NCBI GenBank assembly: GCA_028819295.1 | Contig: JAPPMA010000108.1 | Span: 10,575 to 66,631, forward strand | Reading direction: 5' to 3' | Length of the DNA stretch: 56,057 bases | From: a bacterium | Lineage (GTDB): Bacteria; Actinomycetota; Acidimicrobiia; Acidimicrobiales; Bin134 | Shown here: piece after piece, positions 13,024 through 43,708 of the stretch | Layout of the letters: every line of letters begins with the position of its first letter | Numbering within the stretch: the first letter of the stretch is position 1 | Translations under genes and position numbers: made by a program | Notes under the pieces: model-generated | The model's input: the letters and a program-made list of their open reading frames with translations, nothing else | What the model was told of the DNA's origin: nothing | Databases searched by the model: none

Positions 13024-13248
13024 CTAGTGGTCCGTCTGTGAACTGGCAGGGGCGGATTGCGACGGCAGGGGCGGATTGCGACGGCAGGGGCGGATTGCGA
13101 CGGCAGGGGCGGATTGCGACGGCAGCGGCGTTCCTCGCAAGGCGCGCCGACGCAGCCATACCCGGAGCGTACGGCAAGGAGGAGCAACGCCGCGAGGGGC
13201 GTCGCTGCCTAGCAGGACGCCCTGACCAATTTGCAGACGGACCACTAG
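13024..13248. mobile_element. MITE-like element with 15-bp terminal inverted repeats and TA target duplication
   Basis: CTAGTGGTCCGTCTG at 13024-13038 is matched perfectly by its reverse complement at 13234-13248, and the similarity extends imperfectly about 8 bp further inward. Each end reads C-TA-G, matching the CTAG target with TA duplication described for IS630-family elements. The roughly 219-bp interior carries no gene: it has four 19-bp tandem repeats and an 8-bp internal hairpin (GCGGCGTT 13125-13132 / AACGCCGC 13186-13193). It fills most of the 288-bp gap between the CoA-transferase and the next gene. Confidence 0.7.
13047..13122. repeat. 19-bp tandem repeat, four copies, inside the MITE-like element
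   Basis: Four exact copies of a 19-bp unit beginning CAGGGGCGGATTGCGACGG lie back to back at 13047, 13066, 13085 and 13104. The period is not a multiple of three and there are no spacers, so it is neither coding nor a CRISPR array. Confidence 0.95.
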
Positions 13249-13272: not shown

Positions 13273-14388
13273 TCAGTCGTGGCCTTCGGAGCTTGGCGCA
13301 ATCGGCTTGGTGAGGCCGATCCGCTCGTAGGCCTCCGCGGGAATGGCCTCCAGGGACTTGTAGATCGTCCAGGTGCATTTTTTCGGCTCGGGACCAGACG
13401 TCTCCTCGGGATAGAGCGGAGAGTCGACCACTCTGATGGGATGACCCCACTGGCGGGCGGGCCACAGCTCCAAGGTGTAGCAGCAGTGGGCGCAGTAGTA
13501 GCAGACTCCCTTCTCGTTCCACGCCCAGTCATGTTCTTCGGAGGTGACTCCGAAGTTGTATGGCGGCGCCGAGCGGCTACCAGTTCCCTCGACGGGATCA
13601 CCCCGCTGTCCCCGGTTCCCCGAGCCGCAGGGGTCGAATGAGATCACGTATTTGTCATCCTGTTCGGAGACCTCAATGTCGCCGGTTCGGTCAGGCCCGA
13701 CGAGATGGGCCCGCATCCCCTCGAACGACAGATAGAGGTTGCGGTAGAGGGTGTCCTCATAGGACTGGAGGCGCAGGTCAAAGGGTTGATAGCGCTCTTC
13801 GAGGTAGGGGGCAAGCACTTCGGAGTAGGCCTCACCCACCGCGACCTCACCCAAGCGGTGGGCGACGAAGGTCAGCATACCCGATTGAAAGTCGGCGCCC
13901 CGGTCGTGGAGCTGACGCCATGCCTCTCGCAACCGTTCCAAACGAATTAGTGCTTCTGACGCCTCGATCTCATAGGCCCGCAAGCCGTTGCCCAGCTCCC
14001 CGGCTTGCCGGGCCAGCTCTGCCCACCGGGGATGGGGGTCAAACGGCTCGCCGTCGGGAAAGGCCAGCAGTTCCCGCAAGCGAGCGGTTTCGCTGTCCAG
14101 GTCGTCTTCGCTGACACCCCGACTCGCCAGGAACGAGCCCCAGCCCTCCCCCCACACCTGATAGATGACGTGGACCACTTTGGCCTCTTCCATCCAGTAA
14201 TCCACGAGTTGGGCCGCGGTCTCCCAGTCTCCGGCATCGATGGCTTCGGTGATCTTGGCTGTGGTGGACACGGCTTGGTCGGTCCAGTCCCCGGTGCGGA
14301 CCCGCTTGTTTATCTCCGTCGACCAGCTGAGGTGGGTCGGCGGGGCGGCAGATGTGCCAGAGATGCTTTTCTTGTGCTTCTGATCCAT
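13273..14388 (-). CDS. Uncharacterised protein with CxYCAHC motif (paralogue of 36106-37224)
   Basis: 371 residues from ATG 14388. I do not recognise the family. The N-terminal two thirds look helical (IDAGDWETAAQLVDYWMEEA near residue 45); a central segment reads FEGMRAHLVGPDRTGD; then FDPCGSG, and near the C-terminus GVCYYCAHC, which could bind a metal or cofactor, followed by WGHPIRVVDSP and a CTW segment. The same blocks occur in the same order in the 372-residue protein at 36106-37224. No signal peptide or membrane span. It is the last gene of the operon headed by the SDR at 17618, 20 bp after another SDR, and so within the proposed LacI regulon. Confidence 0.8.
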   Translation of the reverse strand: MDQKHKKSISGTSAAPPTHLSWSTEINKRVRTGDWTDQAVSTTAKITEAIDAGDWETAAQLVDYWMEEAKVVHVIYQVWGEGWGSFLASRGVSEDDLDSETARLRELLAFPDGEPFDPHPRWAELARQAGELGNGLRAYEIEASEALIRLERLREAWRQLHDRGADFQSGMLTFVAHRLGEVAVGEAYSEVLAPYLEERYQPFDLRLQSYEDTLYRNLYLSFEGMRAHLVGPDRTGDIEVSEQDDKYVISFDPCGSGNRGQRGDPVEGTGSRSAPPYNFGVTSEEHDWAWNEKGVCYYCAHCCYTLELWPARQWGHPIRVVDSPLYPEETSGPEPKKCTWTIYKSLEAIPAEAYERIGLTKPIAPSSEGHD

Positions 14389-14408: not shown

Positions 14409-15176
14409 TCAATACATCAGCATGGCACCGCTCACGTTGATGGTGGCGCCGGAGATGAAAGAGGCGTGCCTGCTGGCCAGGAATACCACCGTGCCGGCCA
14501 TCTCCTCGGGCTCGGCCACCCGACCCAGCGGGGTGGCATCGGTTAGTTGCTGGAACAGCTCGGGATCCAGGTCGGTGGTCAGCATCGGTGTGTTGATCTG
14601 GCCTGGCGACACGGCATTGACGGTGATCTGGTCGGGGCCGTAGGTGCGGGCCAGGCCGCGGACCATGGAGACGATGCCACCCTTGGATGCGCAGTAGACC
14701 ACCGAGCCGCCGAACCCCCCTGTCCACCACCCCTGAGACGTGAATGCGATGATGCGACCGCCATCGCCTGCGTCGCGCATGGCGGAGGCTGCCGCCCGGC
14801 ACAGAAAAAACGTGGCCTTCAGGTTGGTGTCCACCTGGAAATCCCAATCCTGCTCGGTTACCTCGTCCACCGATGCCCGTCGTTTGAGAACCGCGGCGAG
14901 ATGGGCCAAAACGTACACCTCTCCCAGGTGTCGCCGAGCCCGGTCGATCAGATCGCGGTGACCGTCCAAGTCGGAGAGATCAGCACCGACGCCGACATGG
15001 CCGGTCCCCTCCAGACCGGCGGCCACCTCCTCCGCGGCCTGCTGGCGGAGATCGACGGCCATGACCTTGGCGCCGGTGGAGGCAAATGCCTCGGCCACTG
15101 GCCGTCCCATGCCTCCCGCGGCGCCGGTCACGATCACCCCCCGGCCCTCCAGTCCTGCTCCGACGCTCCATGTCAT
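14409..15176 (-). CDS. Short-chain dehydrogenase/reductase (SDR)
   Basis: 255 residues. TGAAGGMGRPVAEAFA at about 18-33 binds NAD(P), AHLAAV replaces the usual NNAG, and the catalytic pair is in VVYCASKGG. The C-terminus ends SGATINVSGAMLMY. It sits between an enolase-superfamily dehydratase (46 bp upstream) and the CxYCAHC gene, fourth in the operon controlled by site A. A role oxidising a sugar or sugar-acid hydroxyl is inferred from context only. Confidence 0.9.
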   Translation of the reverse strand: MTWSVGAGLEGRGVIVTGAAGGMGRPVAEAFASTGAKVMAVDLRQQAAEEVAAGLEGTGHVGVGADLSDLDGHRDLIDRARRHLGEVYVLAHLAAVLKRRASVDEVTEQDWDFQVDTNLKATFFLCRAAASAMRDAGDGGRIIAFTSQGWWTGGFGGSVVYCASKGGIVSMVRGLARTYGPDQITVNAVSPGQINTPMLTTDLDPELFQQLTDATPLGRVAEPEEMAGTVVFLASRHASFISGATINVSGAMLMY

Positions 15177-15222: not shown

Positions 15223-16359
15223 TCAGCCCAGAACCTTCTCGCTTCGGTACCGGTCTATCACCCGCTCGTCCACGTCGATGCCCAGTCCCGAGCCCGTGGG
15301 CGGGTAGACCCATCCATCGATGTGGACCAGGGGATCAGGCACTAGCTCGTGTTGCATGGGGTTCTCCAGCGGCTTCAGCTCGAATAGGGTGCATGCCGAG
15401 CTGGAGAAGCTCACCGCCAGGCTGGCGGCCGAAACGATGGCCGACGACCAGGCATGGGCGTTGGCCCGACGCCGGTGCAGCTCCACCAGATCGGTCACCC
15501 GCTTGAAGCCGGTGATCCCCTCGGCTCGACCGGGGTCGCACCCGACCACGTCTACCGTGCCGGTAGCCAGCACACGCTCGTACCCCTCTATGGTCCATTC
15601 CTTTTCGCCGTAGGCCATGGCGGCGACGGATTGGCTTCGCAATTCGGCGTAGCCCTGTGGATCCCAAGCGCCCAAAGGCTCCTCGATCCAGGCGATCCCA
15701 TACTCGTCGAATGCCTGAGTTCGGCTCACCGCGGTGGGCACGTCCCATTTGATCACCCAGCCCAAATCGATCATGAGGTGTTTGGTCGGCCCAATGGCCT
15801 CCCGTATGGCTTTGACATAAGCCACATCGCGATCATGCTCGAAGCCGAGGTGGGCGTTGCCTCGCTTGCCGAATCCGACCTTCATTCCCTGCAAGCCGGT
15901 GGACAGCCATTCGGAGGCCTCAACCGCCATGTCGGGAATGGACTCGTAGTGGGCGTGGGACGATGCGATGGCCGGCAAGCGTTCATGCACCGGGCCGCCC
16001 AACAGGTCCAGGACGCTGCACCCCAGCGCTTTGCCTTTCAAATCCCACAGCGCGATGTCGATGGCCGAGATGGCGAACGACGCGATGCCCCCGCCGTACC
16101 CGTACCACCACGCTCGGTCCTTGAGCGACCGGTAGATGGCGTCCAGGTGAAGCGGGCTCTGGCCGATCACCAGATCGGACATGCCCTCAATGACGGCTTT
16201 GGCGGCAAAGCTCGACTCCGGCCACATGGTGACCGACTCGCCCCAGCCCACGGTGCCGTCGTCGGCTGTGATCTTGGCCAAGCACAGGTGGCGGATGGCG
16301 TCGAAATCGTTGGGCTCGGGGTAGCTGACCGGGATGGCTTCGACGGAGGCTATTTTCAT
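15223..16359 (-). CDS. Mandelate racemase/muconate lactonizing enzyme family (sugar-acid dehydratase-like)
   Basis: 378 residues of the enolase superfamily. A Lys-x-x-x-x-Lys pair is at 160/165 (GMKVGFGK), metal ligands at Asp198 (MIDLG), Glu226 (WIEEP) and Glu252 (YGEKEW), and a possible His base in NAHAWSS. Members abstract the alpha-proton of a carboxylate; in sugar-catabolic operons they usually dehydrate aldonic acids to 2-keto-3-deoxy acids, which fits this neighbourhood. ATG 16359 is the third ATG in a 17-bp repeat ladder that connects it to the upstream VOC gene (see repeat 16357-16404). Confidence 0.9.
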   Translation of the reverse strand: MKIASVEAIPVSYPEPNDFDAIRHLCLAKITADDGTVGWGESVTMWPESSFAAKAVIEGMSDLVIGQSPLHLDAIYRSLKDRAWWYGYGGGIASFAISAIDIALWDLKGKALGCSVLDLLGGPVHERLPAIASSHAHYESIPDMAVEASEWLSTGLQGMKVGFGKRGNAHLGFEHDRDVAYVKAIREAIGPTKHLMIDLGWVIKWDVPTAVSRTQAFDEYGIAWIEEPLGAWDPQGYAELRSQSVAAMAYGEKEWTIEGYERVLATGTVDVVGCDPGRAEGITGFKRVTDLVELHRRRANAHAWSSAIVSAASLAVSFSSSACTLFELKPLENPMQHELVPDPLVHIDGWVYPPTGSGLGIDVDERVIDRYRSEKVLG

Positions 16360-16404
16360 GGCGTCTCGGGTTTCATGGCGTCTCGGGTTTCATGGCGTCT
16401 CGGG
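16357..16404. repeat. 17-bp tandem repeat carrying three start codons
   Basis: CATGGCGTCTCGGGTTT occurs at 16357-16373 and 16374-16390, and all but its last three bases at 16391-16404. On the minus strand each copy supplies GAGACGCCATGAAA. The VOC stop overlaps the first ATG (ATGA), and the two upstream ATGs each open a six-codon frame (MKPETP) that closes at the next ATGA overlap. Confidence 0.9.
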
Positions 16405-17618: not shown

Positions 17619-17663
17619 GTCGATCTCCGTGTTCCGGTGTGCATTGCTCTCCAACCGGGCGGT

Positions 17664-17677
17664 TGGAAACGATTCTA
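17664..17677. promoter_or_regulatory. LacI-type operator, site A
   Basis: TGGAAACGATTCTA: two mismatches to the window consensus TGGAAACGTTTCCA. It lies upstream of the SDR-VOC-dehydratase-SDR-CxYCAHC operon (start 17618). Confidence 0.65.
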
Positions 17678-17801
17678 GGGCAGCTTGGACGATAGCACCG
17701 GAACCGAGACAGGCCATTGGAGCGGGGCCGATGACATGGGCAATCGACGGTCGGCTCGCTGAGCAGGTTGCATCGAGGGCCAAACGTGCTAGCTTTTCGC
17801 C

Positions 17802-17815
17802 TAGAAACGTTTCCA
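17802..17815. promoter_or_regulatory. LacI-type operator, site B
   Basis: TAGAAACGTTTCCA: one mismatch to the consensus, with the perfect core palindrome GAAACGTTTC. It ends 32 bp before the ATG of the sugar-binding protein. Sites A and B share one divergent intergenic region. Confidence 0.75.
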
Positions 17816-17847
17816 GCCACCGTAGTGTGTGACTGAGGGGGAGCAAA

Positions 17848-25917: not shown

Positions 25918-25944
25918 CTCTTCGTCACTTGGTTCAAACAGTAC

Positions 25945-25958
25945 TGGTAACGTTTTCA
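25945..25958. promoter_or_regulatory. LacI-type operator, site D
   Basis: TGGTAACGTTTTCA: two mismatches to the consensus. It lies between the dehydratase (25917) and the regulator gene (26019), so autoregulation is likely. Confidence 0.65.
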
Positions 25959-26018
25959 GCAGACCAACCTGCCTATGATTTCTGGCTTGAGCGTCTGCCG
26001 CCGACAAGGAAGTGGCGC

Positions 26019-27056
26019 ATGAAACACGAGTACGTCACGATGAAGGGCGCCACCATGAAGGAGGTGGCGGCCCATGCCGGGGTGGCCTTGTCCTCAGTGT
26101 CGCGAGTGCTCAACAACCACCCGGATGTCAGCGAGGCCATGCAGCGGCAAGTACACGATGCCATCGCCGCTGTCGGCTACGAGCCCAACCTCTTGGCCTC
26201 CAGTTTGCGGCGGGGATCCACCGAGACAGTGGGCTTCATCGCCAGCGACATCTCCAACCCGCTCTTCGCCGAGATCGTCCTCGGGGCAGAGCGCAGGCTG
26301 GACGAATCCGGGTATTCCATGGTTCTCACCAACTCTGAGGGCAATCCCGAGCGCGATGAGGCCATGATCCGCCTCTTGAGGCGCCGGCGCATCGACGGGC
26401 TCATCTTGTCGGTGGCCGACGAGGACAGGCCGGGGACGATAGCCGAATTGTCCAAGCTGGCTGAGCCGGTGGTGCTCATCGACCGCGAGGTCAGCGGCTT
26501 CCACACCGCTTCGGCGGTATTCACTGATCATTCCGGCGGTATGCGGGCAGCCAGCGAGCACCTGCTCAGCCTGGGACATCGTCGAATTGCATTGATCTCA
26601 GGAGCTCGCAGCTTGCGCCCGGTTCGTGAGCGGCTCAAGGGCTTCGAAGCGGCCTTTGCAACTCGGGGCCTTCAGGTTCCCGAAGACCTCCTTCGCTTCG
26701 GCAGCTTCTCAGCGCCGTTCGGCCAGCAGGCCACCGCCGAACTGCTGGCCCTGGATGATCCGCCCACCGCAATCATCTCTGGCGGCAATCTCTTGCTCAC
26801 CGGGGTGCTGCGAGCCCTGCAAGCGGGCCAACGGTCGGTTGGCGGGGATATCTCGCTCATATCCTGCGACGACGTCCCACTGGCTGAGCTCCACACACCT
26901 CCCATTTCCGTCGTCGACCGAGACGCGGTGCAGATGGGCGATGCCGCCGCTAGTTTGCTGCTCGATCTTCTGGCTGGCGGGGATCGTCCCCGCGTGGCCG
27001 AAGTGCCCACCCATCTGCTTCTACGGGGTTCTACGCAACCGCTGGCCGTCGATTGA
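26019..27056 (+). CDS. LacI-family transcriptional regulator of the sugar island
   Basis: 345 residues. An N-terminal helix-turn-helix and hinge helix are clear (ATMKEVAAHAGVALSSVSRV, then YEPNLLASSLRRG), followed by a periplasmic-binding-like effector domain: VGFIASDISNPLFAEIVLGAERRL, RRRIDGLILSVAD, PVVLIDREV, LGHRRIALISG and ISLISCDDVPLAEL. AAGGAAG precedes ATG 26019; ATGs at 26040 and 26055 are possible alternatives. It is the only regulator in the island, and LacI proteins bind palindromes with a central CG such as the eight sites listed here, so it is the obvious regulator. The ligand is presumably a pathway sugar or acid. Confidence 0.92.
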   Translation: MKHEYVTMKGATMKEVAAHAGVALSSVSRVLNNHPDVSEAMQRQVHDAIAAVGYEPNLLASSLRRGSTETVGFIASDISNPLFAEIVLGAERRLDESGYSMVLTNSEGNPERDEAMIRLLRRRRIDGLILSVADEDRPGTIAELSKLAEPVVLIDREVSGFHTASAVFTDHSGGMRAASEHLLSLGHRRIALISGARSLRPVRERLKGFEAAFATRGLQVPEDLLRFGSFSAPFGQQATAELLALDDPPTAIISGGNLLLTGVLRALQAGQRSVGGDISLISCDDVPLAELHTPPISVVDRDAVQMGDAAASLLLDLLAGGDRPRVAEVPTHLLLRGSTQPLAVD

Positions 27057-27070
27057 GGGACTGCTATTGC

Positions 27071-27310
27071 TCAGTCGGAGGCGATGATGGCGATAGGAGC
27101 GCCAATGCCCACCTCATCGTCCACGGCGACAAGGTGCTCGGCGAGCGTTCCCGACACCGGCGAGGGAACGTCGGAGTCCACCTTGTCGGTCTCGACCCGC
27201 AGCAAATCGTCCCCAGCGGCCACGGTGTCTCCAACCTCAGCGAGCCACTCCAGAACCACCACTTCTTCGGTGGTGTCGCCGAGCTTGGGAAGCTTGATGG
27301 TGAAACGCAT
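27071..27310 (-). CDS. Stand-alone lipoyl-domain protein
   Basis: 79 residues from ATG 27310: a single biotinyl/lipoyl domain (FTIKLPKLGDTTEEVVVLEW, then GDDLLRVETDKVDSDVPSP with the lipoylated Lys43, then VDDEVGIGAPIAII). It ends there: the peripheral-subunit-binding and acyltransferase domains of a normal E2 are absent. It follows E1 beta and E1 alpha in the same operon, so it presumably carries the acyl or reducing group for them. A TTG at 27325 overlapping the E1 alpha stop is an alternative start. Confidence 0.88.
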   Translation of the reverse strand: MRFTIKLPKLGDTTEEVVVLEWLAEVGDTVAAGDDLLRVETDKVDSDVPSPVSGTLAEHLVAVDDEVGIGAPIAIIASD

Positions 27311-27321
27311 GGTGGGCGGGG

Positions 27322-28314
27322 TCAAGGAGCGAGCACGTTGTCGAACATGGCGGCCAACGGGGGTGGCGGGCTGGACAGGACGGTCTCTACCGCGGCGGCG
27401 ATGCTCTCGTCGACCAGAGTCTTCACCGCATCCAATTCGTCACCGCTCAACAGCCCCTCGTCTACCAGTCGGCGGCCGTAGTTGACGATCGGATCCTTCT
27501 CGTACCACCGCTCGAACTCGCCTTCCGGACGATAAGGCGCGGTGTCGGCCCGGGAGTGGCCCGCATACCGGTATGTCTTCATCTCGACCAGGGTGGGGCC
27601 GCCGCCGGCTCGGGCTCGCTCCAGTGCGGCGGCGACCGCGGCGGCCGCATTGTCGGGGTCCTGCCCGTCGACGACCTCGCTGGGCAGGTCATAGGCCTGG
27701 GCTCGCACGGCGATGTCGTCCACCGGCGTGGTCAGATCGATGCGGCTGTACTCACCGTATTGGTTGTTCTCGCAGACGAAAACCACCGGCAAGTTCCATA
27801 CAGAGGCCAAGTTGAGCGCCTCGTGAAAGGCGCCGATATTGGTGGCGCCGTCGCCGAACACTGCTAGTGCGGCATCGTCGGTTCCCCGCACCTGGGCGGT
27901 GAGAGCGGCCCCGGCGGCGACCGGGATCCCCGCGCCGACGATGGCGAAGGTGGGCAGCAACCCGACATCGGGTTCGCTGAGGTGCATGGAGCCGCCAATG
28001 CCACCGATCGACCCGGCTTCTCGGCCCAGTATCTCGCCCAGCAGATCGACTGGGGTCAATCCCAGGGCTAAGGCCACACCGTGGCCCCGATAGGTGCAGG
28101 TCACGGTGTCGGACACCCGGGCGGCCGCGGCCACGCCAACGGCGACGGCCTCCTGGCCGAGGCACAGATGGGTGGTGCCGTGGACCAGTCCTTCGTCGAA
28201 GAGGTCTTGGACCTTGTTCTCCAAGGCCCTTATCTCAACCATCCGCTCGTAACGGGCGCGTCGGTCGTCTTGTAGCGCTTGGCGCCTTTCCAATCGATTG
28301 GCGGGCATGCTCAT
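27322..28314 (-). CDS. 2-oxoacid (pyruvate/acetoin-type) dehydrogenase E1 component, alpha subunit
   Basis: 330 residues, ThDP-dependent. RGHGVALALG near 76-85, the GSMH loop with His111, and the ThDP/Mg motif GDGATNIGAFHEALNLAS starting at 154 and ending CENNQYGEYS. A C-terminal HSRADTAPYRP follows. Overall size and motifs resemble AcoA and branched/pyruvate E1 alpha. The ATG overlaps the E1 beta stop (ATGA, 28311-28314). The frame extends further upstream inside E1 beta, which I reject. Confidence 0.92.
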   Translation of the reverse strand: MSMPANRLERRQALQDDRRARYERMVEIRALENKVQDLFDEGLVHGTTHLCLGQEAVAVGVAAAARVSDTVTCTYRGHGVALALGLTPVDLLGEILGREAGSIGGIGGSMHLSEPDVGLLPTFAIVGAGIPVAAGAALTAQVRGTDDAALAVFGDGATNIGAFHEALNLASVWNLPVVFVCENNQYGEYSRIDLTTPVDDIAVRAQAYDLPSEVVDGQDPDNAAAAVAAALERARAGGGPTLVEMKTYRYAGHSRADTAPYRPEGEFERWYEKDPIVNYGRRLVDEGLLSGDELDAVKTLVDESIAAAVETVLSSPPPPLAAMFDNVLAP

Positions 28315-29327
28315 GGGCTTCCTTTCTCTGCCTCCCACCAGGGGGGCGGAACCCGACCGGTTTGCAACAGCCCGGCGACTTGCTCGTCGATGTAGTCCGA
28401 AGACGGCATGTACCGTTCTTCGAGTTCCTTCCCGAAGGGGACCGGCACGTCGGGTGCGGTGATCCGCAGGGGAGGCCCCTCGAGCTCGCCGAACAGGTCG
28501 GCGGCCACCGCAGCAACGATGTCGGCCCCCCATCCCCCGAACAGCGGATTCTCCTCTACCGTCACCAATCGACCGGTGCGGGCCACTGACTCATAGACCA
28601 TGTCGCGGTCCCAGGGTTGGAGGCTCTGGAGATCAATGACTTCGGCAGACCACGAGGCCGCGGCTTCAGCCTGCGCGGCGGTGCCCACGGTGGACCCCAG
28701 CGCCACAATTGTGGCGTCATCGCCGCCGACCACCTGGCGAGCTGTTCCCAGGGGGATTACACCCTCGGGTCCGGTGGTGACGTTCTCGCGTTGGGCGTAC
28801 AGCCGCCGGGGCTCGAGCACCACGGTGGGGCTGTCGTCTCGGATGGCGGCCCGCATGAGTCCGTAGGCTGTGGCTGGGCCCGAGGCCACCGCCAGCTTGA
28901 GGCCGGGCGTGCCCATCACCCAGCCTTCCAGCGTCTGCGAATGCTGGGTGCCGAATCCCAATCCGGCGCCTACCGAGGCCCGGACGGTGAGGGGGACGGT
29001 GACCCGCCCGCCCGACAGGTAGTGGAACTTGGCTCCTTCGGTAGACAGCTGATCCAGTGCGACGCCTAGGAACTCCACGAACATGATCTCGACCACCGGC
29101 CTCAGGCCTGTGGCGGCAGCGCCTACTGCTGCGCCCAGAAAACCCATCTCGGAGATGGGGGTGTCTCGGACCCGAAGCGGTCCGAACTCGTCCAGCAAGC
29201 CGGCTGAAGTCTTGAACGGCCCCTCGGCCACCGCCACGTCTTCACCCAAGACGATCACATCGGGATCAGCCCGCATTTCGTCGGCGATGGCCGCCGAAAT
29301 GGCCTGGTTCATTCTCATCCGGGGCAC
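28311..29327 (-). CDS. 2-oxoacid (pyruvate/acetoin-type) dehydrogenase E1 component, beta subunit
   Basis: 338 residues of the transketolase-like pyrimidine-binding fold plus C-terminal domain. VIVLGEDVAVAEG, DTPISEMGFLGAAVGAA (Glu60 activates ThDP), the active-site His129 in FGTQHSQTLE, and VIDLQSLQPWDRD. With the alpha subunit it should decarboxylate a 2-oxo acid (or cleave an acetoin-like diketone/ketol) onto the lipoyl carrier. No E2 acyltransferase or E3 is encoded nearby. It lies 76 bp downstream of the Gfo/Idh dehydrogenase on the same strand. Confidence 0.92.
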   Translation of the reverse strand: MPRMRMNQAISAAIADEMRADPDVIVLGEDVAVAEGPFKTSAGLLDEFGPLRVRDTPISEMGFLGAAVGAAATGLRPVVEIMFVEFLGVALDQLSTEGAKFHYLSGGRVTVPLTVRASVGAGLGFGTQHSQTLEGWVMGTPGLKLAVASGPATAYGLMRAAIRDDSPTVVLEPRRLYAQRENVTTGPEGVIPLGTARQVVGGDDATIVALGSTVGTAAQAEAAASWSAEVIDLQSLQPWDRDMVYESVARTGRLVTVEENPLFGGWGADIVAAVAADLFGELEGPPLRITAPDVPVPFGKELEERYMPSSDYIDEQVAGLLQTGRVPPPWWEAEKGSP

Positions 29328-31725: not shown

Positions 31726-33144
31726 TCAGTGCGTGACGGCGATCAGCTCCACGCAGGTGTCCACCAGGATCTGCTCGCTCTCAGGGGCGATCTGCTCGAC
31801 GAGGCCATACGAGTGGTGGGCGTAGTCGCATTCGTAGCCCCCGTCGGGATATTCCACGGCAGTGGGCAAATAGGTGAGCACGCCGTTCGTGTAGCCCGCG
31901 AACAGCGTGGTGGCCGCAACAGAGCGCCGCTTGACCTCGATGGCCAATTCTGAGAATGCCTCGCCGGGCATGGTGGCAATGACCGTGTCTCCAATCCGCA
32001 TGGCTTGCAGGAACGCCGGAACTTGTGACGCAGTGTCGCCGCGGCGTGTCTGCTCGATGGCGTCTTCAGCCCAGTTGAGGTGGTACTCGACGGGGTTGAG
32101 TGCCACCTGATCAGCGCCGGACGACCGAATCCGATCTACTTCTTTCTGGTAGCCGTCCCGTTCGGCCTCAAGTTGGGCCAGAGTGGGGAGAGGTTTGAGG
32201 GGAAGCTGCACGGTGCGACCGCAGGCGGCCAGCGTTTGCACCGGTTGGGGATCGGCGGCCACCTGACGGTGCAGCACGATAGGGGTGACCGAGCCGTAGT
32301 CGATGCGCTGGATGCGGAGCTCGGTGGGAGTGAGCTGCTCGAGGACATGCAGCACTTCCACCCCTAGCTTGCGGCCGAATGCCACTTCGGGACCGGTGTG
32401 GTCGAAGAATCCTTCGAGCGGGAGCACGTTTCCGCAGGCCCCTTGCAAGAACAGGCACGTCGCGCCGGTCACTTGTTCGACCAGGTCGCGCATTGGGCCG
32501 GGATAATCGGGGTTCACCCCGGCATCCTCCGGGCCGACCACCACCGGGTGGCAGGCGTAGCTGACCAGCACGGCGAGCGTCGAGCCGTCCAAACGGTCGA
32601 TGCGCAGCACTCCCACGTCACGGTCCACTGCCTTGTCGGGGTTCCAGCCCAAGATCACCCGCCCCTCGGCGTTCTTCTCCCGCCGGTTCACTGCCAGATC
32701 CAAGGTTCCGACCCCACCGGCGACTCGGACCGGTTCAAGCTGGGCCGCGGCTTGGGTGGCGACTTCTTTGATCTGCCGAGGAAAGGAGTCTATGAAGGCC
32801 ATCTCATTGGCGGATCGCGCTCGCTGCTGCCCGCCGATTTTCACACCCTGGGAATCGGTCATCGGGCCGGCATGGGTGTGGCTCACCCCGATCATGACGT
32901 GATCGGGAGAAGTGTCAATAGCGGCACCGATCTCCGCCCGCAAGCGGTCGGCATGATGGGGGGTCAGGAAGGGCACATCGGCGGCCAATATGGCCACCCG
33001 GGTGGGGCCCAACTCCACAACCAACGCGGTGGCCGTGAGCCGGCCTCGAATTTCCGAGGCCGGCTCGACTCGTCGGGAATAACCCACCACATCAATTGGA
33101 ACCGATGGGGTGATGTCGACACGAGAGACCCCGGCACTAAGCAT
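31726..33144 (-). CDS. Neutral/alkaline ceramidase-like N-terminal domain protein
   Basis: 472 residues. The start (GVSRVDITPSVPIDVVGYSRR) and blocks ILAADVPFLTPHHADRLR, IGVSHTHAGP (88-94, metal-binding His), VSYACHPVVVG, LFLQGACGNVLP and ATMPGEAFSEL match the N-terminal domain of neutral/non-lysosomal ceramidase, as found in many bacterial proteins of unknown substrate that sit in sugar clusters. No signal peptide is visible, so it should be cytoplasmic, unlike secreted ceramidases. An amidase or ester hydrolase for a sugar derivative is plausible. Divergent from 33201 across operator G. Confidence 0.85.
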   Translation of the reverse strand: MLSAGVSRVDITPSVPIDVVGYSRRVEPASEIRGRLTATALVVELGPTRVAILAADVPFLTPHHADRLRAEIGAAIDTSPDHVMIGVSHTHAGPMTDSQGVKIGGQQRARSANEMAFIDSFPRQIKEVATQAAAQLEPVRVAGGVGTLDLAVNRREKNAEGRVILGWNPDKAVDRDVGVLRIDRLDGSTLAVLVSYACHPVVVGPEDAGVNPDYPGPMRDLVEQVTGATCLFLQGACGNVLPLEGFFDHTGPEVAFGRKLGVEVLHVLEQLTPTELRIQRIDYGSVTPIVLHRQVAADPQPVQTLAACGRTVQLPLKPLPTLAQLEAERDGYQKEVDRIRSSGADQVALNPVEYHLNWAEDAIEQTRRGDTASQVPAFLQAMRIGDTVIATMPGEAFSELAIEVKRRSVAATTLFAGYTNGVLTYLPTAVEYPDGGYECDYAHHSYGLVEQIAPESEQILVDTCVELIAVTH

Positions 33145-33171: not shown

Positions 33172-33200
33172 GAGTGTTGGAAAGAGAGAGGCGGAAAGGG

Positions 33201-34601
33201 ATGACTCCCCTAAAGATCGGCCAATTGTCTGTGTATTTCGGACTGTTCGATGAAGCTATGCCGGCCGGGTTCCGCCAAACGCGCCGAGACTATGCCGCCG
33301 CGGTTGGCGACATGCTGGCGGCGTACGGTGAAGTCGTTGCGCCCGGTCTGGTGGACAACCTGGACAGCGCCGCTGAAGCGAACGAAGCGTTCGTCAAAGA
33401 AGGGGTGGACGTTGTGGTCTTCGCTCCCACCATGGCGGCGCCCCCCGGATGGGCGGCGCGGGCATTGGATGGCTTGGATGTGCCGGTTGTCGTGCTAGGG
33501 GCCCAGGAGAGCGGGACTGTGCCCGACGACTACGACACCGAGACGGCCACCGCTCGCAGTCTGCCGGTGGGGCTGGTCATGTTCACCAATGTGCTTGTCC
33601 GGCGACGGCGGTCGTTCACCGCTGTGGTAGGCGAGTTGGGGTCGCCGACGCTGACAGTCTCGCTGGGCCGGGCCATGAGGGCAGCAGCGGCCGTAGCCAC
33701 CATTCGCGGCCGGCCCATTGCCCAAGTTGGCGAGGCCATCGGGGGCTACGACGATGTCATGGCCTCTGAGCAGGAGCTGGCCTTGCTGGGAGTGCGAACG
33801 GTGTCGATCACGGCCGAGAAGCTGACTGAGGCGTTCCAGTCGGTCTCGCCAACCCGGGTGAAGGCGGTTGCCGACGAGGTCCGGGCGACCGCAGACGCCG
33901 ACGCGGTTCCCCCCGAGGTCTTGGACAGGTCGTGCCAGCTGAGCGCGGCGCTGGAAGACCTGTGTGATGCCTATCGGGTTTGCGGTGGGACGGTGAACTG
34001 CCACGGGCCGGTGATGCGCTGGAACCCGGGAGTGGGAATCACCGCGTGTTTGGGCGTCACCCGGCTCAGCGAGCGGGGCATCCCGTTCTCCTGCACCGGC
34101 GATGTCCCCACGGCCATTGCGCTCTCGCTATGCAAGTCGGTGGCCGGGGCCGCGTTGTACTGCGAGCTGTATCAGATGGACTTCGCCGGAGACTGGATCC
34201 TGGTGGCCAACGGCGGGGAGGGAGATCCAACCGGCCGCGCCCCGGGGTCGGCGATACGCTTGCTGCCCGAGGACCACTATTCGGGAGAGCATGGCCCCGG
34301 TACCGCCTCGGCTTTCGAGCTGGCTGAAGGCCCGTCCACCTTGGTGAGCCTGACTCCGGCCGCAGCCGCTGTGGGCGGCTGGCTCTTAGTCGTGGCCGAG
34401 GGCGAGATCATCGGCGCACGCCATCGCCGAATGGAGGGGCCAAACGGCATGTTCCGGTTTTCTGCCGCGCCAGTGGCTGAGGCTTATCAGGCCTGGTGCC
34501 AGGCAGGCGCTACCCACCATGCGGTGCTGGTGCCCGGGGCTCGTCAAGATGATCTGGCGTGCGTTGCCGATCTGTTGGGAATTGAGCTGGCCGCGGTCTA
34601 G
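33201..34601 (+). CDS. L-fucose/L-arabinose isomerase-like protein
   Basis: 466 residues from ATG 33201 with GGAAAGGG just upstream. The arrangement matches the FucI/AraA-like fold: an N-terminal Rossmann-like domain (VDVVVFAPTMAAPPG, VPVVVLGAQESG), a middle domain (GGYDDVMASEQELALLGVRTV), and C-terminal blocks GGTVNCHGPVMRW, ITACLGVTRL, GIPFSCTGDVPTAIAL and VVAEGEIIG. Such proteins isomerise aldoses and ketoses with a divalent metal, but the usual metal-site Glu/Asp/His set is not obvious to me, so activity is unproven. It faces a paralogue at 34625-36070 tail to tail with 23 bp between stops. Confidence 0.8.
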   Translation: MTPLKIGQLSVYFGLFDEAMPAGFRQTRRDYAAAVGDMLAAYGEVVAPGLVDNLDSAAEANEAFVKEGVDVVVFAPTMAAPPGWAARALDGLDVPVVVLGAQESGTVPDDYDTETATARSLPVGLVMFTNVLVRRRRSFTAVVGELGSPTLTVSLGRAMRAAAAVATIRGRPIAQVGEAIGGYDDVMASEQELALLGVRTVSITAEKLTEAFQSVSPTRVKAVADEVRATADADAVPPEVLDRSCQLSAALEDLCDAYRVCGGTVNCHGPVMRWNPGVGITACLGVTRLSERGIPFSCTGDVPTAIALSLCKSVAGAALYCELYQMDFAGDWILVANGGEGDPTGRAPGSAIRLLPEDHYSGEHGPGTASAFELAEGPSTLVSLTPAAAAVGGWLLVVAEGEIIGARHRRMEGPNGMFRFSAAPVAEAYQAWCQAGATHHAVLVPGARQDDLACVADLLGIELAAV

Positions 34602-34624: not shown

Positions 34625-36070
34625 TTACACCACGGTGCAGTCAACGTTTGCGAAATTGGCTACTGCGGCCACTGCTGATGCCAAGTGCCCAGGGGAGATG
34701 GCACTGTGGTGGTTGACCCCGGAAGCCGTCCACCGGGCCCATGCTTCGGCCACTGACCCGTTGGAGAAGCGGAACACGCCTCCGACGGTGGGGTTGGCGG
34801 GCAGTTCTCGGCCGGTGATCTCCCCTTCGGCCACGACGAAGCCGAACCCTGACGGATGTTCCGGTTGGGGGGCGAACCCGACCAGCGATGCCGGCCCAGT
34901 CGGCAATTCGAAATGGGCCCGATACCCGGTGCGCTGATCGGCGTCATACCAGGGGTTGGGTCCCAGCTTCGGCACTCGGCCATCCGAGCACCAGTCCAGG
35001 TCATGCTCCCCTGAGTTGGCCACCGCCACCTCACCGGTCTTGAAGTCGATGGCCTCGATTTCGTGGTAGAGGGCCGCACCGGAAAGCTGCTTGGCCACCA
35101 GCATGGCCACTGCGGTGAGCACATCCCCGGTACACGTCCAAGGCACTCCCCGAGTGGTTTCGCAGCCCAGCCCGAAACAAGGCGTCAGTCCGGGGTCGGG
35201 TCCGAAGCGGATCTCCGGAACATGGCAGTTCATTGCTCCGGCGGCGAAATCGCCCTCTCGGTCCAGGGCCTCGAGTGCGGCCGCCAGACGAAGGGACCTG
35301 TCGAGGTCGTCCTCCGGTCCCGGTTCTATCTCAAATGAGCCGACCACCCGTTGGCGCCAAGAGGCGGCCTGGGCGTCGTCGACCGCGGCGTAGTGCCGCA
35401 GCACATCGTGTGGGGTCAGGGCTACGACTTCTATCCCCAGAGACCGCCCCAGTTCTTCGTCGTCGGCGTCGACGCATCCGTAGCCATCCAGGGGGCGGCC
35501 GACCCGAGCCAATCGAGCTCGGCGCAAGCGAGTCGCCACGGCTGCGGCTCGAAGCCGGTCGGCCACCTCGGCTGCGCCCCGCTCGCTCCCTTCGGGGGAG
35601 ACCACCAGCTCGAAAGCTCGCCGGGTCCGGTGGAGCATGTTGGTGATCATCGGAGTGCCCACGGTCGCCCCCAGAGACGTGACGTGACCAGCATTGAAGT
35701 CGGCAGGGATGACCGCCGACCTCTGCACCGCCCAGATGACGACCGGCCGAGGGAGATGATCGAGGAGGCCTAATGCATGAGAGGGAGGCACTGCCATCGA
35801 CTGAACTACCAATACAGCTTCGGGGCCGCGGGCCGCGGCCTCTTCAGCGCCGCGGACGCCCTGTTCGGGACCGTCGACCAGTCCCTGCCAAACGACATCG
35901 ATGTTCCGTTCTCCAAGGAGGTCACCCACAGACCGCAGCAGATTCTCGCGGTCACTTCGAAAATCTGGCCCGACGCTCGATTCCCAAAAATCCCAATAGG
36001 GAACGACGACTGCGGCTCTCGGCGCGGCCTTCTGGTGGTAGCCAGGCTCGCCATCGATCGGTATAGTCAT
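34625..36070 (-). CDS. L-fucose/L-arabinose isomerase-like protein (paralogue of 33201-34601)
   Basis: 481 residues from ATG 36070. It shares the order of blocks with its convergent neighbour: VLVVQSMAVPPS, GYGCVDADDEELGRSLGIEVV, GAMNCHVPEIRF, LTPCFGLGCETTRGVPWTCTGDVLTAVA, and FVVAEGEITGRELPAN near the end. The differences are large, so the duplication is old or the two were recruited separately; they might form a hetero-oligomer or handle two sugars. Operator H lies 3 bp upstream of the ATG. An alternative start 6 codons earlier (36088) would overlap the operator. Confidence 0.8.
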   Translation of the reverse strand: MTIPIDGEPGYHQKAAPRAAVVVPYWDFWESSVGPDFRSDRENLLRSVGDLLGERNIDVVWQGLVDGPEQGVRGAEEAAARGPEAVLVVQSMAVPPSHALGLLDHLPRPVVIWAVQRSAVIPADFNAGHVTSLGATVGTPMITNMLHRTRRAFELVVSPEGSERGAAEVADRLRAAAVATRLRRARLARVGRPLDGYGCVDADDEELGRSLGIEVVALTPHDVLRHYAAVDDAQAASWRQRVVGSFEIEPGPEDDLDRSLRLAAALEALDREGDFAAGAMNCHVPEIRFGPDPGLTPCFGLGCETTRGVPWTCTGDVLTAVAMLVAKQLSGAALYHEIEAIDFKTGEVAVANSGEHDLDWCSDGRVPKLGPNPWYDADQRTGYRAHFELPTGPASLVGFAPQPEHPSGFGFVVAEGEITGRELPANPTVGGVFRFSNGSVAEAWARWTASGVNHHSAISPGHLASAVAAVANFANVDCTVV

Positions 36071-36073
36071 TGC

Positions 36074-36087
36074 TGGAAACGTTACCA
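36074..36087. promoter_or_regulatory. LacI-type operator, site H
   Basis: TGGAAACGTTACCA: one mismatch to the consensus. It occupies most of the 35-bp gap between the divergent starts at 36070 and 36106, so binding should block both. Confidence 0.75.
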
Positions 36088-36105
36088 AGGAGAAGGAAAC
36101 GGCAG

Positions 36106-37224
36106 ATGTCAGAGAACAGGATCGAATTCTCCGAAGTGCTGGGGCGACGGGTCCGCCTGGGGCCCTGGGAAGATCAGAAGATCTCGACTTATCGAAAGAT
36201 AATAGAGAGCATTGACCAGGGGGATTGGGAGACAGCGGCCGATCTTGCCGACTACTTCACCGACGAGGCCAACGTCTGCTTCACCCTCTACCGCCAATGG
36301 ATCAATGATTTGCGCGGGTTTCTGCGGGATAGCGGTGCATCCGCTGAAGAGGTGGCATCCATTGATGCCGATGTTCAATCCAAGCTCACCTGCCCCGACG
36401 GACGGGAGTGGAATGCCCACCGCCATTGGGACCAGTACCGAGATGAACAGCGCCGACTCTTGGCCACCATCTACCGGGAAGATGCCGAGCAGGCCCGAGA
36501 GCACCTGGCGACCATGAAGGAGACCTGGCGCCAGACCCACGACCGTGATGTGGATCACACATATGGGCTCATGTCAGCCATTCAGGCCCGCCACGGAGCC
36601 CAGGGCATCGCCGATATGTACCAACGGGTGCTCGTGCCGCTCTTCTCGTGGCGGTACAACAAGTTCGATATCGACCAGCATCCGTGGGACGAGGCGTTGG
36701 AGACGCTGATGCTGGTGGCCTGCGAAGCCATGAGAGGCCATTTGGTCGGACCGGAGCGCACCGGTGACTTTGAACTGATCGAGGCCGATGACCGCTTCAT
36801 CCTGCGGTTCGATCCCTGCGGGTCGGGTCAGCGGATTGTCCGCGGCGACTGGATCGAAGACACCCCGGCCCGGATAGAGCCCCCCTACAACTGGGAGGTG
36901 GCAAAAGAGGAGGCATCTTGGAACCACTTCACAAAGGGGGTCTGCCTCTATTGCGCCCACTGCATTGTGCTGATGGAAGAACTGCCCATCGACCGCTTCG
37001 GCTATCCGGTGCGAGTGATCGACCCGCCGGTGTACCCCGACACCGACCCTGACCCTGAGGTGCGTCAGAAGTGTCAATGGCAGATGTTCAAGGATCCCAC
37101 CACCGTTCCTGAGGAGTATTACCTTCGGGTGGGCCGGAAAAAGCCCAAAGTATTCGGGTCGAGCAACTTTGATGCCCCCGAACTGCCCGACGCCGGAGCA
37201 CTCGGGCTCCCTGGCACAGGCTGA
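36106..37224 (+). CDS. Uncharacterised protein with CxYCAHC motif (paralogue of 13273-14388)
   Basis: 372 residues from ATG 36106, with GGAGAAGG upstream. Family not recognised. It repeats the block order of the 13273-14388 protein: IDQGDWETAADLADYFTDEA in the N-terminal helical part, a second helical region ending EAMRGHLVGPERTGD, then FDPCGSGQR, GVCLYCAHC, GYPVRVIDPP, and a C-terminal CQWQMFKDPTTVPEEYYLRVG. The Cys/His cluster suggests metal or cofactor binding, and the lack of a signal peptide suggests a cytoplasmic enzyme. It begins an operon with the zinc alcohol dehydrogenase 5 bp downstream. Both copies fall under LacI-type sites (H and A), tying the family to this pathway. Confidence 0.85.
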   Translation: MSENRIEFSEVLGRRVRLGPWEDQKISTYRKIIESIDQGDWETAADLADYFTDEANVCFTLYRQWINDLRGFLRDSGASAEEVASIDADVQSKLTCPDGREWNAHRHWDQYRDEQRRLLATIYREDAEQAREHLATMKETWRQTHDRDVDHTYGLMSAIQARHGAQGIADMYQRVLVPLFSWRYNKFDIDQHPWDEALETLMLVACEAMRGHLVGPERTGDFELIEADDRFILRFDPCGSGQRIVRGDWIEDTPARIEPPYNWEVAKEEASWNHFTKGVCLYCAHCIVLMEELPIDRFGYPVRVIDPPVYPDTDPDPEVRQKCQWQMFKDPTTVPEEYYLRVGRKKPKVFGSSNFDAPELPDAGALGLPGTG

Positions 37225-37229
37225 CCTTC

Positions 37230-38252
37230 ATGAAGGCAGCAGTGCTTCGCGGCTATGGAGAACCCCTGGAGCTGGTCGAGCGCGAGCCGCTAGTGCCCGG
37301 CACCGGCCAAGTGGTGGTTGAGGTCAAGGCCTGCGGCGTCTGCGGCAGCGACGTGTTCCTTCGCAAGGGAGGGTTCGACTCGGTGCTGCCGATTGTGCCC
37401 GGTCACGAGGCATCCGGCGTGGTGGCTCGTGTCGGCCCCGACGTGGAAGGTCTACGGGTTGGCGATCCGGTAGCCGCCTACTACATCGAGCACTGCGGGC
37501 AATGCCCCCTGTGCGTTCAGGGGCGGGTGAACATGTGCTTGTCTGTGCGGCGCATGGGGGTGGAGTTCGACGGGGCCTTTGCCGGCGAAGTGCTGATTCC
37601 GGCGCGCAACGCCATAGCAGTAGAGCCGGGCGACGATCTTGCCGCGGTGGCGGTGCTGACCGACGCGGTTGCCACTCCGTACCACGCCCTGGTCCGCGTG
37701 GCCGGAGTTGAGCCGGGGATGACGGTTGTCGTGCTGGGGGTGGGGGGAATCGGCTCAAACGCGGTGCAGTTGGCTGCTCACCTTGGCTGCGAAGTGATCG
37801 CGGTGAGCCGCTCGCCGGCCAAGCTGGACCTCGCGGAGCAACTCGGGGCTCGGGCCGTGGTTTCGGCCGCGGATGGCGAGGGCAGGATGCTCGACGGAAT
37901 CAGACAGGCTTGCAGCCCAGCCGGGCCCCAGGTTGTGGTCCAGACGGTGGGATCAGCGGATGTGGACTCCCAGGCGCTAGAAGCGGTGGGCATCGGGGGC
38001 AAGGTATTGCTCATCGGGGCCAGCATGGAGCCGTTCTCCGTTCGGGCGGTGGATCTCATCTGGAAGGAGGCGTCCGTCCACGGTTCGCGGGGTTTCGTGC
38101 CCGATGATATTCGCGAGGTTTTGGATCTCTACCGACACGGTGCGGTACGCGTCGACCACTTGTTGCGCAGGCAGCGACCGCTTGAGGAGGCAAACCAGGC
38201 CCTCGACGAGCTTGAAGCCGGCCAAGTGCTCCGGTCGGTGTTGATCCCCTAG
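37230..38252 (+). CDS. Zinc-dependent alcohol/polyol dehydrogenase (MDR family)
   Basis: 340 residues. Catalytic zinc site Cys38 with GHE at 58-60; structural zinc Cys89, Cys92, Cys95 and Cys103; Rossmann motif VVLGVGGIGSNAVQLAAHLG near residue 170. Sorbitol/threonine-dehydrogenase-like medium-chain enzyme, oxidising a secondary alcohol with NAD(P). It is cotranscribed with the CxYCAHC gene. Its TAG stop falls inside CTAGTGGTGTGTCCC, a sequence that recurs at 50896 and resembles the MITE end, so the C-terminus may have been trimmed by an insertion. Confidence 0.92.
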   Translation: MKAAVLRGYGEPLELVEREPLVPGTGQVVVEVKACGVCGSDVFLRKGGFDSVLPIVPGHEASGVVARVGPDVEGLRVGDPVAAYYIEHCGQCPLCVQGRVNMCLSVRRMGVEFDGAFAGEVLIPARNAIAVEPGDDLAAVAVLTDAVATPYHALVRVAGVEPGMTVVVLGVGGIGSNAVQLAAHLGCEVIAVSRSPAKLDLAEQLGARAVVSAADGEGRMLDGIRQACSPAGPQVVVQTVGSADVDSQALEAVGIGGKVLLIGASMEPFSVRAVDLIWKEASVHGSRGFVPDDIREVLDLYRHGAVRVDHLLRRQRPLEEANQALDELEAGQVLRSVLIP

Positions 38253-42349: not shown

Positions 42350-43708
42350 CTAGAGCTCCAAGAGCGCCTGTTCGACCACCTCGGTCAGCGCGGGGTGGAT
42401 GTAGAGCTGGCCTCGGGCCATCTCCTCCACGGTGAGACCGAACTGCATTCCCTGGATGAGCTGCTGGATCAAGGTGGGGGCCTGAGGACCGATGATGTGG
42501 GCGCCCAGCAAGAGCCGGGTATCGGGATCGGCCAGCACCTTGGCGAAGCTGGTGGTGTCCTCCATGGCCCAGCCGTAGGCGGTACCGCTGTAAGGGCGAA
42601 CGGCTCGGAGATAGGGCCGCCCCTCGGCTCGCAATGCCTGCTCAGTAGCTCCGACCGCGGCCACCTGCGGATAAGCGAACACCGCGTGGGGAATGCCGGA
42701 GTGATCGGGCGCCCGCAGGTCGTTGGGATTGGCGATGTTGTGGGCTACCGCCCGGGTGTCCTCGTTGGCGGTGTGCTTGAGCTGGGCCGCATGGCAGATG
42801 TCGCCCAGCGCCCACACCCCTTCGACACTGGTGCGGAGAAACTCATCGGTCGCCACATAGCCGGAGTCGTCCAATTCAATTCCTGAGCGGGTCACGCCGA
42901 GCTGCTCGCCGTTGGGTATTCGGCCGGTGGCCAGCAGCAGCACATCGCCGGTCACATCCCGGGCTTCGGTGTGGACGGTGATCTGCGACCCACCCTGGGA
43001 CACGCCGGTGATGGGGGATCCCAAGGCGCAGTCCATCCGCTGGGACACGATGTCGGTGAACGCGGCCGACACCTCCTCGTCCTCGGCCCGCAGCAACCGG
43101 TCTGAGCGGTTCACGATGGACACCGACACCCCCATGGCGTCGAACACGTGGCCCAACTCGGCGGCGATGTAGCCCCCGCCCAGGATCACCAGCCGCTCGG
43201 GCAGCGACTCCAGGCGCATGACGGTGTCGGAGGTGTGGTAGGGAACCTGGTCCAAACCGGGGATCGGGGGGATGAACGGCCGGGCCCCGGCGGCCAGCAC
43301 GATGTGGTCGCCGGTGAGCTGGCGCCCGTTCACCTCCAGCACCTTGTGGCCGACAAAGCGGGCGTCGCCGTTGAACACGGTGATGTTGTCGAGGCTGTGG
43401 CGGTAGTCCTCCCCGCCCTGGGCGATGGGGTCGATGCGCCCGAACACCCGGCCCACGATCTCGGGCCAGCGCACCCCGTCGAGCGAGCTGTCCACCCCCA
43501 AGTGCCCGGTGCGGCCGGCCTGGTGGGCCGTGTCGGCGGCGTACACGAACATCTTCGAGGGTATGCAGCCCCGGTTGAGGCAGGTGCCGCCGAAGGCGTC
43601 CCGTTCGATCAGCGCCACCCGCCAGTGGTCGAAATCGGGGGTCAAAACGCTGTTGCCCGACCCGGTTCCCACCACCACCAGGTCGAAGTGCTCGGGTGAC
43701 TCAGGCAT
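42350..43708 (-). CDS. mtr: Mycothione reductase
   Basis: 452 residues of the flavoprotein disulfide reductase family. FAD-binding GTGSGNS near residue 14, redox pair Cys43/Cys48 in GGTCLNRGCIPSK, NAD(P)-binding GGGYIAAELGHVF, a second FAD segment VWALGDICHAAQLKHTANED, and the C-terminal IHPALTEVVE with the catalytic His438/Glu443. The GQLYIHPALTEVVEQALLEL-type ending is characteristic of mycothione reductase, which regenerates mycothiol. This is the strongest single marker that the host is an actinobacterium. Confidence 0.93.
   Translation of the reverse strand: MPESPEHFDLVVVGTGSGNSVLTPDFDHWRVALIERDAFGGTCLNRGCIPSKMFVYAADTAHQAGRTGHLGVDSSLDGVRWPEIVGRVFGRIDPIAQGGEDYRHSLDNITVFNGDARFVGHKVLEVNGRQLTGDHIVLAAGARPFIPPIPGLDQVPYHTSDTVMRLESLPERLVILGGGYIAAELGHVFDAMGVSVSIVNRSDRLLRAEDEEVSAAFTDIVSQRMDCALGSPITGVSQGGSQITVHTEARDVTGDVLLLATGRIPNGEQLGVTRSGIELDDSGYVATDEFLRTSVEGVWALGDICHAAQLKHTANEDTRAVAHNIANPNDLRAPDHSGIPHAVFAYPQVAAVGATEQALRAEGRPYLRAVRPYSGTAYGWAMEDTTSFAKVLADPDTRLLLGAHIIGPQAPTLIQQLIQGMQFGLTVEEMARGQLYIHPALTEVVEQALLEL

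Follow-up and report, generated by a model that had tools for sequence, protein, structure and literature searches.

An unnamed four-cysteine protein family in a putative oxidative sugar locus of an Acidimicrobiia genome and its probable kinship with the V4R/Bet3/ATC-hydrolase superfamily

The HNOB, V4R and ATC hydrolase domains have been described as similar to one another, and V4R and ATC hydrolase have a three-cysteine cluster in common (PMC5847659); Bet3, in turn, has been described as probably descended from V4R (PMC2253512). In MopR, the zinc ligands are three cysteines and one glutamate (PMC10715001), and ATC hydrolase is an enzyme that opens a ring (PMC5847659). The window analyzed here, a 56,057-nucleotide stretch of DNA from a member of the Acidimicrobiia, carries two genes, referred to below as copy A and copy B, whose products are filed in neither of the corresponding Pfam families, PF14196 (ATC hydrolase) and PF02830 (V4R). 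They belong to a family that is real, unnamed and widespread, and whose fold is probably a known one. The two genes and their main motifs are as follows:

36106..37224, forward strand: copy A, unnamed family, clade A, an ORF of 372 aa
36808..36828, forward strand: FDPCGSG of copy A, with Cys238 just after a β-strand
36937..36963, forward strand: GVCLYCAHC of copy A, with Cys280, Cys283, His285 and Cys286 at the start of a helix
37072..37074, forward strand: Cys323 of copy A, residue 1 of the last β-strand (CQWQMFK)
13273..14388, reverse strand: copy B, unnamed family, clade B, an ORF of 371 aa
13618..13638, reverse strand: FDPCGSG of copy B, with Cys254
13483..13509, reverse strand: GVCYYCAHC of copy B, with Cys296, Cys299 and Cys302

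Aligned end to end by BLASTP (274 bits, E = 2e-94), the two products are 39% identical over 355 aligned positions and show three gap positions, and the five blocks that a first-pass annotation had listed in a shared order are all found in both. Orthologues 60–95% identical to copies A and B are present elsewhere, those of copy A matching at 95%, 89%, 88% and lower; as close orthologues occur in other genomes, both copies look maintained as proteins and, given these orthologues and a family of 74 loci, their resemblance is not due to chance. The same annotation could assign neither product to a characterized family, and this was borne out, as nothing in Pfam, NCBIfam, PHROGs or the PDB sequences matches copies A and B. 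Searches of these four collections with single proteins and with a 52-row profile returned nothing above cut-off, and none of six distant relatives and 52 core members went past a curated Pfam cut-off in hmmscan. One relative matched Pfam B12-binding_2 at E = 8e-4, under the cut-off, which we read as a helical resemblance only. Literature searches on the motif, on the RHA1 plasmid cluster and on IolN yielded nothing useful. Just downstream of copy B, at 13045-13139, a 19-base unit (GGCAGGGGCGGATTGCGAC) is repeated about five times in tandem.

The 74 loci, recovered by a phylum search and a scan of a genome collection, are spread over several phyla and include Acidimicrobiia, Mycolicibacterium, Chloroflexota and Hyphomicrobiales; on three Rhodococcus plasmids, the family proteins are annotated as “hypothetical protein”. 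In the tree, long forms of about 330–380 aa make up three clades, A (40 rows, copy A among them), B (20 rows, including copy B) and C (12 rows, with members from Mycolicibacterium, Nocardioides, Rhodococcus plasmids and Hyphomicrobiales). Copies A and B thus fall in two old clades. Single-module forms of 220–270 aa and two-module forms of about 500–590 aa occur in Actinomycetota, Bacteroidota, Chloroflexota and others; the short forms are joined by long branches, and their internal order is unsure. The long forms possess an additional half-module at the N-terminus, which is related to the opening helices of the core. The genome from which the window comes also encodes a third, very divergent member (G000 contig C64, L202:6928-7857, reverse strand; L183) that has lost Cys283 and Cys286 (YRTHV) and keeps the positions of Cys238, His285 and Cys323.

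Conservation across the family, numbered according to copy A, is concentrated on a small set of residues. In the alignment of a diverse set, Cys238 is present in 53 of 53 rows and Cys323 in 47 of 47, Cys283, His285 and Cys286 are each found in 46 of 47, and Ser240, Gly241 and Glu226 are near-invariant too; His145 (46/53) and Asp146 (47/53) follow. The CxYCAHC string first proposed as the family signature does not hold in full: its first cysteine, Cys280, is a cysteine in 32 rows and a proline in 14, proline being found in single- and two-module relatives. The signature to use is therefore CGSGG ... YCxHC ... CxW. The second modules of six two-module proteins keep all four cysteines in six of six cases, but none of them retains His285 and five carry a changed His-Asp pair. 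The simplest reading of this pattern is that the four cysteines would form a structural metal site and that the histidines are tied to the function of the first module. The proposal that the cysteine cluster is a metal or cofactor site thus gains support from four cysteines that are invariant and retained even in degenerate modules; the site is probably a metal site, and the metal probably zinc.

Structure prediction and profile comparison both bear on the fold. A first model, built from a 5-row alignment, was poor in the motif region, matched helical bundles only and was uninformative. The core model (residues 104-356, 52 rows) reached a pLDDT of 94.3 and a pTM of 0.88, with no residue below 70. 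Compared with known structures, it gave no Foldseek match below E = 0.001. VIA-align listed 27 entries at Z of 5 or more, 15 of which are TRAPP/Bet3 or MopR V4R chains aligned over 135–157 residues, the other 12 comprising BcsD (147 residues) and 11 single-helix matches of about 40 residues. TRAPP/Bet3 and MopR are the only coherent group of long matches, at Z 5.1–5.9, values within the range of 5–6 that unrelated models can also reach and that are no proof taken alone. In hhalign comparisons against 52 target profiles, among which a GntR-type helical profile was the best control, PF14196 came first of 52 when the core, diverse and short-form profiles were aligned locally, at single-comparison E-values of 0.0009 to 0.0036 versus 0.0098 to 0.03 for the best control; the local alignment of the core profile stops at Cys238. 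In global mode, the short-form profile matched PF14196 at E = 1.7e-5 (best control 6.6e-4) and placed ATC cysteines opposite Cys238, Cys283 and Cys323, a correspondence that is weaker with the other profiles. The second-module profile alone, and the core profile in global mode, did not rank PF14196 first, and for one profile in global mode the GntR-type control nearly ties with ATC hydrolase; because of this near tie, the ATC link is graded probable, not proven. In hmmscan, copies A and B, the six relatives and the 52 core members all stay under the gathering score of PF14196, and V4R (PF02830) and TRAPP gathering scores were likewise not reached by copies A and B, the relatives or the core members; their own genome holds no PF14196 match either. 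A direct V4R profile link was considered and set aside, as it found no support in the hhalign comparisons. On balance, we lean towards placing the family in the V4R/Bet3/ATC-hydrolase superfamily, as a divergent branch. The first-pass description of an unrecognized family stands as far as the lack of a name is concerned, but the notion that it is unrelated to anything is weakened by this likely link.

The genes that surround the two copies are the following:

37230..38252, forward strand: zinc-type alcohol dehydrogenase, directly downstream of copy A
14409..15176, reverse strand: SDR dehydrogenase, immediately upstream of copy B, which starts 20 bases after the SDR stop
15223..16359, reverse strand: sugar acid dehydratase of the enolase superfamily, in the copy B operon
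34625..36088, reverse strand: fucose/arabinose-isomerase-like protein, divergent from copy A, an ORF of 487 aa whose start is more likely near 36070
33174..34601, forward strand: second isomerase-like protein (Arabinose_Iso_C)

An SDR or zinc-type dehydrogenase is a same-strand neighbor of 45 of 77 family genes, as compared with 119 of 937 other genes (12.7%), which corresponds to an odds ratio of 9.7 and a p-value of 6e-19 that related loci make optimistic. The type of dehydrogenase follows the clade, zinc-type for A and SDR for B: in clade A, a zinc-type dehydrogenase comes next to the family gene in 28 of 41 loci, and clade B loci contain an SDR in 15 of 16 and an enolase dehydratase in 12 of 16. 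Clade C loci hold an SDR in all 12, together with glutamine-synthetase-like, flavin monooxygenase-like and alpha/beta hydrolase genes. The expectation that homologues would always accompany Rbs-type transporters and FucI-like proteins fails, FucI being present in 31 of 41 clade A loci, 1 of 16 in clade B and none of 12 in clade C, and RbsB/permease genes in 12 of 41, 6 of 16 and 1 of 12, respectively. Among the deep relatives, L083 has an SDR on one side and an acetoacetate-decarboxylase-like gene on the other, and L085 and L086 precede that same kind of gene; the short forms are often found beside acyl-CoA dehydrogenase and thiolase-like genes, as assigned from sequence. For the extra neighborhoods, gene context was read at 12 of 17. 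Lactonase-like amidohydrolase, mutarotase-like, MlrC-type and 2-oxoacid dehydrogenase genes recur in clade A and B clusters, a gene set that would match the layout of an oxidative sugar pathway.

Several further features of these loci deserve mention in their own right. Both isomerase-like proteins weakly resemble models of arabinose isomerase and sulfoquinovose isomerase, with scores that fall well short of the curated cut-offs of the full-length models. A stand-alone lipoyl-like domain of 79 residues (27071-27310) is followed by E1 alpha (27322-28308) and E1 beta (28311-29312) genes, with no full E2 subunit beside them and a distant lipoamide dehydrogenase at 42350-43708. A protein with a neutral ceramidase N-terminal domain (31726-33144) lies within the sugar regulon, a Fic/DOC family protein (10086-11612) lies among metabolic genes, and three exact tandem copies of TTTCATGGCGTCTCGGG span the start of the enolase-type gene (16354-16404). 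Six clade C clusters (L075, L080, L084, L089, L091, L203) contain glutamine-synthetase-like, AllG-like (oxamate carbamoyltransferase subunit) and flavin monooxygenase-like genes, and look like an amine or amide breakdown pathway.

Whether copies A and B also answer to one regulator can be judged from the following elements:

36073..36088, forward strand: LacI-type site CTGGAAACGTTACCAA, directly upstream of copy A
17801..17816, forward strand: LacI-type site CTAGAAACGTTTCCAG, heading the copy B operon and divergent from an rbsB-like gene
17663..17678, forward strand: LacI-type site with 3 mismatches, likewise heading the copy B operon
25929..27056, forward strand: LacI-family regulator, assigned from sequence, with a site at 25944

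A search of the window with CTGGAAACGTTTCCAG returned eight sites at ≤3 mismatches versus 0.22 expected, and shuffled sequence never gave more than two in 100 shuffles, a count that is somewhat favored by the pattern having been drawn from sites in the window itself. The claim that both genes lie under LacI-type sites is sound for copy A, with its site directly upstream, but only indirect for copy B, a distal gene whose operon-head sites are more than 3 kb away. Given the site upstream of copy A and the two that head the copy B operon, a LacI-type regulator appears likely to control both copies, and this regulator is probably the gene at 25929-27056.

The two copies had been proposed to form a heterodimer or to serve two substrates. 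An obligate heterodimer is rejected, because two Salinibacterium genomes and one chromosome-level Acidimicrobiia assembly (the genomes of loci L030, L050 and L052) each hold a single copy of the family, the Salinibacterium copy having both kinds of neighbor. The second half of the proposal fares better: two old clades with different dehydrogenases fit better with copies A and B being specialized for two intermediates or substrates. That the family protein is an enzyme of the pathway, as was also proposed, we grade as plausible.

The best explanation as a whole, to which we give a probability of roughly 0.35, is that of a metalloprotein of the V4R/Bet3/ATC-hydrolase branch that would perform the hydrolytic opening of the product of its partner dehydrogenase. 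A helical bundle would pack on a small alpha-beta unit, and Cys238, Cys283, Cys286 and Cys323 would together coordinate a single metal ion, probably zinc, and hold a pocket for a small molecule. The candidate catalytic residues, His285 and the His145-Asp146 pair of the long helix, would probably act on the ligand in the active module. The adjoining NAD(P)-dependent dehydrogenase would make a ketone from a sugar acid, a lactone or a related polyol, and the family protein would use water to open that ketone, cleaving either a ring or the activated C–C bond. Copies A and B would each serve a different intermediate or substrate of a single oxidative sugar pathway under LacI control. Hydrolytic opening of a ring or C–C bond in the ketone of the neighboring dehydrogenase is, we infer, the most likely role, by analogy with ATC hydrolase, whose ring-opening reaction takes place on a possibly related scaffold, and with the FAH-type enzymes. 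FAH-type hydrolases cleave in other non-phosphorylating sugar pathways; the genome encodes six FAH-type diketo-acid hydrolases, none on the contig of the window, which is suggestive only. Against hydrolysis, PF14196 with its single known enzyme is a weak precedent, the short forms stand beside CoA-thioester enzymes so that one common reaction is not obvious, and adjacency to dehydrogenases would suit a carrier or a redox partner equally.

The main rival is a carrier or ligand-binding role. A non-catalytic small-molecule binder or carrier might hand an intermediate from the dehydrogenase to the next enzyme or tune the dehydrogenase, its metal being structural, much as characterized V4R relatives bind ligands without catalysis (PMC2253512; PMC10715001). 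The strong linkage to two unrelated kinds of dehydrogenase would suit a partner protein, but the conserved polar residues H145, D146, E226, R243 and H285 exceed the need of a hydrophobic binder and no fusion to a sensor output domain is seen in the loci read, so that we hold this role to be unlikely, though a serious competitor. Less likely still is a decarboxylase, aldolase or dehydratase of a keto acid, built on a V4R-like fold around a catalytic Lewis-acid metal: enolase dehydratase and 2-oxoacid dehydrogenase genes do occur in the clusters, an acetoacetate-decarboxylase-like gene adjoins one deep relative and the FAH-free window contig leaves the cleaving step open, but four cysteines on one metal would leave the substrate no open site, and no aldolase or decarboxylase family was matched. 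A redox protein that re-oxidizes the partner dehydrogenase or joins in oxidation through an iron-sulfur cluster or thiol chemistry is improbable, for although it would account for four invariant cysteines including a CxxC, for the frequent dehydrogenase neighbors and for the lipoamide and 2-oxoacid dehydrogenase genes of several clusters, no iron-sulfur or redox family match reaches cut-off, the partner dehydrogenases are ordinary NAD(P) types in need of no protein partner, and the cysteines are placed as in the V4R/ATC pattern, which holds zinc in MopR.

Hydrolytic opening remains our preferred reading, and it can be extended, tentatively and with considerable doubt, to an unrecognized class of V4R/Bet3-fold metalloenzymes that would cleave dehydrogenase-made ketones in sugar, amine and CoA-thioester breakdown in several phyla. 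If true, this would be a catalytic branch of a fold known, ATC hydrolase apart, mostly for ligand sensing and vesicle traffic, and catalysis would widen the known chemistry of the V4R/Bet3 fold. Describing the family would give it a name and a signature, together with a biochemical role that can be put to the test, and would fill a step in several catabolic clusters.

Among known pathways, inositol breakdown in Thermotoga relies on a zinc-type dehydrogenase (IolM) that makes a diketone and a separate hydrolase (IolN) that opens it; IolN is not known to be a member of the unnamed family, and the dehydrogenase next to copy A scores 190 bits against the IolM model, short of its cut-off of 450. 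TRAPP/Bet3 proteins are the most frequent long structural matches (Z 5.1–5.9, 135–157 residues, rmsd 4.5–6.2) but are eukaryotic trafficking proteins with no detectable sequence similarity to the family. The V4R sensors MopR, PoxR and DmpR (PF02830) have a similar order of elements and overall size, and MopR chains are in the VIA-align list for the core model at Z 5.1 over 149–156 residues; the tetrahedral zinc site of MopR is cysteine-based, with three cysteines and one glutamate where the unnamed family has four invariant cysteines, one on an earlier strand and two at the start of the CxHC helix. Unlike the V4R sensors, the family gives no profile match to V4R and has no sensor output domain in the loci read. 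Unlike ATC hydrolase (PF14196), it has no Pfam hit, and it carries two added motifs, CGSG and YCxHC; its first cysteine is separated from the helix by a loop of about 45 residues, and its long forms have an added N-terminal half-module. What the two nonetheless appear to share is the order of a helix bundle, a strand ending in a cysteine, a cysteine in the next helix and a last strand that opens with C-x-hydrophobic-x-aromatic, and PF14196 is the top profile of the 52 in most comparisons.
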